From Acidobacteriota bacterium (GTDB taxonomy: Bacteria > Acidobacteriota > Terriglobia > Terriglobales > Acidobacteriaceae): DNA of 64,000 nt. The DNA lies in NCBI GenBank assembly GCA_013289795.1, contig JABCZH010000013.1:62001-126000 (forward strand), in the 5' to 3' direction. How positions within the stretch are numbered: position 1 is the stretch's first letter; each line of letters opens with the position of its first letter. Below the pieces are notes generated by a model, which worked only from the letters and a program-made list of their open reading frames with translations, ran no database searches and was not told the DNA's origin. The translations under genes were made by a program, and so were the position numbers. Below are positions 22,593 to 24,278 of this stretch, piece by piece.

Positions 22593-22816
22593 TACAGAAT
22601 CAGCCCACTACCGGACGTTCGTACTTTCTATCCGGGATGGCCCGGTGCCCCAGGTTCGCGCCCTAGGCACCGACTCTGAGTTCTTAACTTCTCTGCGTCA
22701 TGGGGCGCTAACCTGGGCGAAGGAAACTCGCGGGTTAATTGCGAGGACAGACGAAACTTCCTCCAAAATCCGAAAATGCGGGCAATTCGGAGACAGACGA
22801 GAGTGACCCCAACCCA

Positions 22817-23059
22817 TCAGCGCCTCGGTTTTCGTGAGCGGACGGCCTTGATGACCCGATCAATTTGGCTCGAACTGAGCGTGTCTGTTCCCTTGCGTCG
22901 CGATTCGTTTCCAATCAACCTGAGCACCTCCGGCACCGGAGTAGCCAGCCGTGAACGGGTTTTTAGCAACTTTCTTCGCATGGGATGGTCCACCACAAAA
23001 GCCAAAGCCCCGAGCATCGCCCGGGGCTTCGAGATACTAGAACACCGTTTGCCAGACAT
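22817..23059 (-). CDS. Possible leaderless small basic protein
   Basis: 80 codons from the ATG at 23059. The peptide is strongly basic (MSGKRCSSISKPRAMLG at the start, DRVIKAVRSRKPRR at the end). The ATG lies only ~5-7 nt after a good -10 box (23064-23069), so any mRNA would be leaderless. A terminator-like hairpin sits inside the frame. In the second copy of the repeat the start is GTG and a 4-nt deletion shifts the frame, which argues against a conserved protein. It may be only an accidental frame over a small RNA. Confidence 0.3.
   Translation of the reverse strand: MSGKRCSSISKPRAMLGALAFVVDHPMRRKLLKTRSRLATPVPEVLRLIGNESRRKGTDTLSSSQIDRVIKAVRSRKPRR
22997..23057 (-). ncRNA. Candidate small RNA, unit 1
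   Basis: Promoter TTGACA (23086-23091), 16-nt spacer, TATTAT (23064-23069), with predicted start near 23057. The first 16 nt (GTCTGGCAAACGGTGT, 23057 down to 23042) are perfectly complementary to the anticodon arm of the tRNA-like gene at 23121-23208. A hairpin (arms 23022-23029 and 23005-23012, 8 bp) with a T-rich tail (T, then TTTT at 22997-23000) would end it. Length ~60 nt. Confidence 0.5.
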
Positions 23060-23119
23060 CTTAATAATATGCCGGATACACCGCTTGTCAAGCACGTTCA
23101 AACAGGATCGAGTGCCGAG

Positions 23120-23208
23120 AGGAGGGCAAGGGAGTTGAACCCTAGTGGCTGCAAGAGCCACTCGACCGTCTGGCAAACGGTGTCCAGTACCCACTGGCAA
23201 TACCCTCC
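23120..23208 (-). tRNA. Non-canonical 8/4 tRNA-like gene, anticodon GCC (Gly codons)
   Basis: 5' end at 23208. The acceptor stem has 8 bp (23201-23208 with 23121-23128, one G-U). The D arm is CCAGT-GGGT-ACTGG (5 bp with 4-nt loop, like tRNASec). The anticodon stem has 5 bp (ACCGT/ACGGT) with loop TTGCCAG, anticodon GCC at 23172-23174. A 7-bp variable arm with 5-nt loop lies at 23144-23162. The T stem has only 4 bp (AGGG/CCCT) with a normal TTCAACT loop. The discriminator is U (23120) and no CCA is encoded. A canonical tRNA has 7/5 stems, and Gly tRNA has no long variable arm. The 8/4 plan matches the allo-tRNAs described from Acidobacteria; a long variable arm suggests serylation, U73 suggests glycylation. 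Confidence 0.8.
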
Positions 23209-23230
23209 TAAACGCCGTCTACCGTGCTTC

Positions 23231-23254
23231 ATTTTATGAGCGCTATCTCATAAA
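23231..23254 (-). promoter_or_regulatory. Promoter with palindromic operator for the tRNA-like gene
   Basis: Perfect 8-bp dyad TTTATGAG (23233-23240) and CTCATAAA (23247-23254) with a 6-nt centre. It overlaps a minus-strand -10 box TAAAAT (23231-23236) 22 nt before the tRNA 5' end. The -35 is weak (TTCGCT), so control by a bound protein is plausible. Confidence 0.5.
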
Positions 23255-23813: not shown

Positions 23814-23876
23814 GAACTACGGAGAAAACTGGGAGGGTAATCGGGGACGGGTAATCGGCGACAGACGGGACCGACC

Positions 23877-24164
23877 CCAACCCATCAGCGCCTCGGTTTT
23901 CGTGCCCGGACGGCTTTGATGACCCGATCGATTTGGCTCGAACTGAGCGTGTCCGTGCCGTTGCGTCGCGATTTCCACTCACCCTAAGCACTTCCGGCAC
24001 CGGGGCAGCCAGCCGTGAACGGGTTTTTGGTAACTTTCTTCGCATGGGATGATCCACCACAAAAGCCAAAGCCCCGAGCATCGCCCGGGGCTTCGAGATA
24101 CTAGAACACCGTTTGCCAGACACCTCAATGATATGCCGGATACACCGCTCGTCAAACACGTTTG
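23877..24164. repeat. ~290-bp duplicated element, copy 2
   Basis: Second copy of 22807-23097, same orientation, about 1.07 kb apart. Differences include a 4-nt deletion (CGAA, minus strand) and a weaker promoter (TTGACG, 16 nt, TATCAT). The hairpin and the 16-nt antisense segment are unchanged. Confidence 0.85.
24061..24121 (-). ncRNA. Candidate small RNA, unit 2
   Basis: Promoter TTGACG (24150-24155), 16-nt spacer, TATCAT (24128-24133). The predicted transcript starts near 24121 with the same 16 nt complementary to the tRNA anticodon arm (24106-24121). An 8-bp hairpin (24086-24093 with 24069-24076) and TTTT at 24061-24064 follow. Confidence 0.48.
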
Positions 24165-24174
24165 ACTGCCCGCC

Positions 24175-24232
24175 AAAAGCAAAAGCCCCGAGACTGACTC
24201 GGAGCCTGCGGTTGTACTGAACGATGCCCGTC
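24175..24232 (-). ncRNA. Candidate small RNA, unit 3 (divergent)
   Basis: Promoter TTGACA (24261-24266), 16-nt spacer, TAGCAT (24239-24244). After the -10 it shares CATTGARGTGWCKGGCA with unit 2, then a different middle. An 8-bp hairpin follows (24198-24205 with 24185-24192, one G-U), then TTTTGCTTTT. The same layout as units 1 and 2 with a changed stem sequence supports an RNA rather than a protein. Confidence 0.48.
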
Positions 24233-24278
24233 ACTTCAATGCTATCAGTCGCGACAAGCATGTCAACAAGGATTGGCA

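Follow-up and report, generated by a model that had tools for sequence, protein, structure and literature searches.

The window, a 64,000-nt stretch from an Acidobacteriota bacterium of the Acidobacteriaceae (GCA_013289795.1, contig JABCZH010000013.1, positions 62,001 to 126,000 of the forward strand), contains an unusual tRNA gene and, close to it, three short antisense units (Table 1). ARAGORN found a single tRNA in the window, Gly (gcc) at 23208-23119 on the minus strand, and the sole Rfam match in the window was to tRNA-Sec (RF01852) at the same site, with 48.2 bits where the gathering score is 47. The 90-nt RNA has an 8-bp acceptor stem (GGAGGGUA/UGCCCUCC), a 5-bp D stem (CCAGU/ACUGG) with a 4-nt loop, an anticodon stem ACCGU/ACGGU with the loop UUGCCAG, a 7-bp variable arm (AGUGGCU/AGCCACU), a 4-bp T stem (AGGG/CCCU) with the loop UUCAACU, and a 3' end at U73 that lacks the CCA encoded in 37 of 37 ordinary tRNA genes checked. 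Its minimum free energy is -41.5 kcal/mol, and none of 200 shuffles folds equally well. An earlier note on this DNA had described the 8/4 fold, the GCC anticodon, all of the arms, U73 and the absence of CCA, and these are borne out by ARAGORN, Rfam and the fold (z = -3.0); it did not give the strand of the gene, which is minus.

The same genome, which has one serS gene, separately encodes tRNA-Sec(UCA) at G000:C8:66348, four tRNA-Ser and an ordinary tRNA-Gly(GCC), and the window allo-tRNA is therefore an extra gene. Two identities were rejected. tRNA-Sec shares the 8-bp acceptor, the long variable arm and the short D loop, and the Rfam margin is narrow, but the window RNA has a T stem of 4 rather than 5 bp and combines GCC with an 8/4 geometry instead of UCA with 8/5. 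A canonical tRNA-Gly is contradicted by the acceptor GGAGGGUA and by the lack of a 7/5 fold with a GCGGGAG-type acceptor. The earlier note had proposed counting ordinary tRNA-Gly(GCC) genes elsewhere in the genome; that gene is present and its acceptor is different. The assignment to the 8/4 allo-tRNAs of Mukai et al., also made there, agrees with the 8/4 geometry, the phylum and the common anticodons (GUC, GCG).

Table 1. Features of the allo-tRNA locus, in positions of the 64,000-nt window
Feature	Position	Strand	Basis
8/4 allo-tRNA, anticodon GCC, long variable arm, U73, no encoded CCA	23120..23208	-	ARAGORN, Rfam, fold, covariance models R1/R2
Anticodon-arm segment ACACCGTTTGCCAGAC, antisense target	23168..23183	-	Perfect 16-nt inverted repeats I3, I4
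5' leader, partly complementary to anticodon arm family-wide, weak in window member	23209..23232	-	
3' trailer CACTCGA	23108..23114	-	Complementary to TCGAGTG (23165-23159)
Promoter of antisense unit A, TTGACA-16-TATTAT	23064..23091	-	Consensus scan, 11/12
Antisense small RNA, unit A (predicted)	23002..23061	-	Repeats, promoter/terminator scan, covariation in relatives
Antisense unit B, duplicate of unit A, without tRNA	24066..24155	-	Repeats D1 + D2, 93% and 91% identity
Antisense unit C (orphan), antisense TGACGGGCATCGT at 24233-24221	24183..24266	-	Duplex energy, collinearity with L044
54-aa ORF, C-terminal remnant of Phd/YefM-like antitoxin	22817..22981	-	Homologous to antitoxin C-termini preceding PIN-like toxins

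The segment ACACCGTTTGCCAGAC spans the 5' strand of the anticodon stem, the loop and the beginning of the 3' strand. Perfect inverted copies of these 16 nt lie at 23042-23057 and 24106-24121, giving three exact matches against 0.17 expected, and their position between a near-consensus promoter and a terminator points to a short antisense RNA gene beside the allo-tRNA. In unit A, a near-consensus sigma-70 promoter about 60 nt downstream of the allo-tRNA precedes the complement of the anticodon arm (23057-23042), located at the 5' end of the predicted RNA, and then a GC-rich terminator hairpin (23032-23002). Unit B repeats this arrangement with the promoter TTGACG-16-TATCAT, an identical 16-nt antisense (24121-24106) and a terminator, and unit C with TTGACA-16-TAGCAT, the antisense TGACGGGCATCGT and a terminator; the cognate tRNA of unit C is absent from the window. 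A consensus scan of the 1.4-kb region gave exactly three promoters, one per antisense unit, against 0.4 expected, the best being that of unit A, and three terminators match them. The only other perfect copy of the 16-nt antisense in the genome is unit B, sites with two mismatches occur at chance level, and the unit A antisense has no perfect target in the window genome except its own tRNA. The cofold gain of this antisense is -16 kcal/mol with the allo-tRNA and no stronger than -0.7 kcal/mol with the best ordinary tRNAs. A 310-bp duplication (22787-23098 and 23855-24162, 91-93% identical) copied the antisense unit and the antitoxin remnant, not the tRNA.

Covariance models built on the tRNA alone were used to search 399 genomes of the class, 396 of the phylum and 398 of the family, and the antisense had no role in the selection of loci. 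After removal of duplicates, 99 distinct matches of the allo-tRNA type were retained, so that the structure does recur in related genomes; the controls were 32 other tRNAs with a long arm, among them true tRNA-Sec and 8/4 tRNAs of the UAU type. Of the 99 matches, 87 are followed on their own strand by a sequence strongly complementary to the anticodon arm; no such sequence follows any of the 32 controls. The remaining 12 comprise two with the complement further downstream (L143, L155), one at an assembly gap, one at a contig end, three decayed versions, two tRNAs with broken stems and three non-members. Across 85 distinct arms, the pairing score is 38.5 for a tRNA and its own antisense and 21.3 for swapped partners, with 0 of 5,000 permutations as good. 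Among 40 diverse combinations of arm and antisense, pairing holds in 97% of cells, double compensatory changes are found in 14 of 14 pairs, and covariation scores 0.74, compared with 0.24 when shuffled and <= 0.13 when slid; the variable anticodon positions covary fully with the antisense. An example is L044, a locus beside rpoD in another Terriglobia genome, where an 8/4 tRNA has the anticodon GUC and a very different anticodon arm, and the downstream promoter runs directly into a 13-nt perfect complement of that arm. Judged by these two loci, complementarity is retained despite the changed sequence. Twenty genomes carry two to five modules each, and the own tRNA is a better fit to the antisense than the other tRNAs of the same genome in 87 of 88 comparisons.

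The complement starts 2-8 nt past the -10 hexamer, most often 5, which is where the RNA is predicted to begin. The mean promoter score is 9.8 for the antisense, 4.9 for the best promoter before the tRNA and 3.2 for shuffled sequence; by these predicted scores the antisense promoter exceeds the tRNA promoter in 83 of 87 modules. A strict terminator hairpin follows the antisense in 73 of 87, and across the family the antisense gene lies 40-140 nt downstream of the tRNA on the same strand. The anatomy of the module, the covariation and the lock-and-key specificity within genomes can be read directly from the sequences, and we regard pairing of the antisense with the tRNA at the RNA level as strongly supported on these comparative grounds. 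The 8/4 tRNAs with a UAU anticodon have no antisense gene and no leader or trailer complementarity, and they were rejected as family members because the antisense is absent; they (L061, L190, L194) form a separate group, and the codon ATA is almost unused in the window genes. In two allo-tRNAs the variable region is enlarged by an insert of about 55 nt (L180:501-645 and L191:501-646), and both retain the antisense unit; L131 and L164 are tandem arrays of two complete modules each, 311 and 533 bases apart.

The sequences that flank the tRNA are also complementary to it. The heptamer TCGAGTG, to which the trailer is complementary in the window, consists of the last anticodon-stem base, the junction and the 5' strand of the variable arm. 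Across modules, the leader pairs with its own anticodon arm at -19.7 kcal/mol versus -14.1 kcal/mol when swapped, and the trailer pairs with the anticodon 3' strand and the variable-arm 5' strand at -18.4 versus -13.8 kcal/mol (0 of 5,000 permutations in each case); neither complementarity was found in the control tRNAs. The mean predicted probability of the acceptor stem is 0.95 in the mature RNA, 0.40 with its own flanks and 0.66 with swapped flanks, which also disturb the predicted fold, to a lesser degree; in control tRNAs it changes only from 0.95 to 0.90 when flanks are added. Many precursors with leader and trailer are predicted to form two long hairpins, with loss of the acceptor stem. 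In the window precursor the predicted pairing of leader and trailer is weak, and the cloverleaf is therefore kept. The leader resembles the 5' end of the antisense, and for that reason the antisense gene may have arisen by duplication of the promoter and leader of the tRNA.

The acceptor of the window allo-tRNA copies that of the genome's tRNA-Ser (GGAGGGA...UCCCUCCG) and not that of its tRNA-Gly (GCGGGAG...CUCCCGC). A long variable arm and a GGAG acceptor are present, and nucleotide 73 is U, versus the G73 typical of Ser tRNAs in 76 of 96 relatives. The earlier note's expectation of recognition by seryl-tRNA synthetase gains from the acceptor and from the G73 of the relatives and loses from U73 in the window member, and serine charging, as judged from these elements, is favoured but unproven. 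Its other suggestion, that U73 would favour GlyRS, fits the distribution of U73 among relatives (alignment A4), which is found in 10 of 15 GCC members versus 8 of 81 others, so that glycylation by GlyRS is possible for the GCC subclass. The link between U73 and GCC stems partly from shared descent and hints at a glycine identity of this subclass. If charged by GlyRS, GCC members would insert glycine at glycine codons and would be harmless or a relic. The anticodons of the relatives include GCG, GTC, GCC, GAG, ATC, TTC and others; serine anticodons are absent, and the codons read are nearly all common ones. Apart from G73, the relatives retain A37 (92 of 94) and U33 (70 of 94), the latter being replaced by C33 in 23 of 94. 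U73 in the window and C33 in those relatives may weaken charging or decoding.

Several observations bear on which partner is harmful. The unit C antisense forms a duplex of -41.6 kcal/mol with the GUC tRNA of L044 and of -22.6 kcal/mol with the window tRNA, and the window is collinear with L044 except for L044:2687-2931, which holds the whole tRNA gene and its promoter and is missing in the window. By this comparison the unit C antisense has outlived its tRNA, and an antitoxin that persists after loss of the toxin is the usual antitoxin signature. Stem lesions are present in 4 of 4 tRNAs with lost or decayed antisense and in 17 of 85 with antisense (p=0.002, with small n). An allo-tRNA of Silvibacterium placed Ser at Leu codons in E. 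coli, according to a review (PMC7609411). Together with the non-serine anticodons on a Ser acceptor, these observations speak for the tRNA as the harmful partner, acting by mistranslation, and we give this about an even chance. Both the toxicity and the charging of the allo-tRNA are what we infer from such features.

We propose a two-RNA module. Its first gene would encode an 8/4 allo-tRNA that joins an acceptor end of the serine type to a non-serine anticodon, and its second a short terminated RNA with a strong sigma-70 promoter and a 5' end that is the perfect or near-perfect antisense of the anticodon arm. The small RNA would bind this arm and keep the tRNA from decoding; such pairing and blocking we consider very probable. 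With its leader and trailer, the precursor would form two long hairpins in place of the cloverleaf, and tRNA activity would appear only after processing and addition of CCA, much as hok mRNA is masked until trimmed. Judging from the predicted folds, masking of this kind is probable, with less assurance than the pairing. At common codons (for example GGC, GAC, CGC), a stable tRNA would introduce serine or some other wrong residue, and an abundant and presumably short-lived antisense would neutralise it. The anticodon and the antisense would drift jointly, which would allow several modules of different specificity to coexist in a genome. Our main reading, with a probability of roughly 0.6, is a tRNA that masks itself and is controlled by antisense, most probably as the toxin of an RNA-RNA toxin-antitoxin pair. 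Taken by itself, a toxin-antitoxin or addiction function of the two RNAs stands at even odds. Most modules belong to a single family, and two further families of the class contribute a few. Plasmids and phages are frequent carriers of addiction modules; the present modules were absent from viral contigs in one exact-pattern scan and from plasmids and phages by BLAST, which counts against the addiction-module reading.

The same pairing evidence would serve a host that rewrites some codons under stress and lets the antisense set the level, so that mistranslation is useful and regulated and the pair is no addiction module. The retention of A37, U33 and G73 is in keeping with such a role, as are the varied chromosomal sites: the module of the window and that of L044 adjoin rpoD, and others an XdhC-like gene. 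The patchy presence, the many unrelated anticodons, the orphan antisense units and the decayed tRNAs instead resemble selfish turnover, and we hold useful mistranslation to be possible but doubtful. For the window copy taken separately, U73, the weak precursor pairing, the neighbouring orphan antisense units and the antitoxin remnant would suit a degenerate, silent allo-tRNA in a decaying locus; with all stems intact and a 16-nt perfect antisense behind the best promoter of the three units, this seems unlikely. It is highly improbable that the inverted repeats act in DNA, as hairpins of a non-autonomous mobile element for a single-strand transposase: transposase-like ORFs near L107 and L120 and the local duplication in the window agree with it, but DNA hairpins need neither a conserved promoter 2-8 nt before the antisense nor a terminator, and copies within a genome carry different arms and are therefore not products of recent transposition. 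The ORFs that adjoin the modules at L107 and L120 resemble, by eye, REP-associated tyrosine transposases.

A further alternative makes the tRNA-like RNA the regulator and the short RNA its target, with a T-box-like opening of the terminator for a downstream ORF. The order of promoter, anticodon-complementary segment, terminator and ORF in the window, L044 and L055 is as this would demand. However, the antitoxin-remnant ORF is missing at most loci and the downstream genes differ, an indel after the antisense breaks any reading frame between unit C and L044 (by inspection), and Rfam gives no T-box match, which leaves this alternative very unlikely. The 54-aa remnant is probably a passenger. ORFs of 50-54 aa from the C-terminal half of Phd/YefM-type proteins recur directly after the antisense unit in the window, L044:3058-3205 and L055, and intact relatives at L045, L048, L049 and L052 precede PIN-like toxin genes. 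We rejected an 80-aa ORF read from the antisense site as a leaderless mRNA, in which a GGC codon meets the GCC anticodon: in L044 the start codon and the complement are in different frames, and a comparison of unit C with L044 shows complementarity preserved but the reading frame lost. Its product has no Pfam match, and its C-terminus is an antitoxin remnant. A fixed protein partner was rejected as well, as the neighbours differ among loci. At L044:3210-3264, a second rpoD 3' end follows the module, as if insertion at the end of rpoD had rebuilt the gene.

The main feature of the locus is the co-varying antisense gene together with the self-complementary leader and trailer, both absent from the earlier note, and the central issue becomes how the allo-tRNA is silenced rather than which codon it decodes. 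The tRNA is a new member of the known allo-tRNA kind; the novelty lies in the two-RNA module, for which we found no matching described system in open-access papers, nor any literature there on antisense control of allo-tRNAs. The allo-tRNAs would be, to our knowledge, the first tRNAs under the control of their own antisense RNA, and we know of no described toxin-antitoxin type in which a tRNA itself is the toxin, as it would be here if the toxin/antidote pair is true. In these soil Acidobacteria, the antisense RNA seems to restrain the allo-tRNA to which it belongs, and the two are perhaps an all-RNA toxin and antidote. Whether they make up a new RNA-only toxin-antitoxin class, with a mistranslating serine tRNA as toxin, a precursor in which it is masked, and a lock-and-key antisense that neutralises it, is to us an evenly balanced question. 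Why Acidobacteria keep tRNAs that look set to corrupt the code, and why the anticodons reach such a range of codons, has been a question since allo-tRNAs were described, and a dedicated antisense locked to each tRNA is a direct and testable answer. Natural lock-and-key pairs would also serve as switchable orthogonal tRNAs for genetic-code work.

The 8/4 and 9/3 allo-tRNAs of Mukai et al. 2017, as reviewed (PMC7609411), share with the window RNA and its relatives a 12-bp acceptor domain split 8/4, a long variable arm, a diversity of non-serine anticodons and an origin in Acidobacteria; of their serine identity elements, the window RNA has the GGAG acceptor but U73 in place of G73. A dedicated antisense gene and a masking leader and trailer are not described there. 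Antisense and masking would explain the variable anticodons and the possible tolerance of allo-tRNAs by their hosts. In CreTA, a tRNA is sequestered by a short mRNA, CreT, whereas CreA depends on a CRISPR complex (PMC12737573). Unlike CreTA, the window module has the tRNA itself as its presumed toxin and needs no protein partner. The module also differs from T-box leaders in having no T-box structure, no conserved downstream gene and a complementarity that extends through the stem; in a T-box leader, an RNA segment complementary to the anticodon lies upstream of a terminator. In the type I system hok/sok, the full-length transcript is masked and is activated by processing, the antisense arises from a stronger promoter, and the toxin is a membrane peptide. 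The allo-tRNA module resembles it in the predicted masked precursor, the proposed activation by processing and the higher-scoring antisense promoter, but encodes no protein. In type VIII systems, of which CreTA and SdsR/RyeA are examples, both partners are RNA. Two adjacent RNA genes with specific complementarity, which mark that type, are what we find here, one RNA presumably harming translation and the other neutralising it by base pairing. By analogy, the two-RNA module would work most like a type VIII or hok/sok-like addiction pair.
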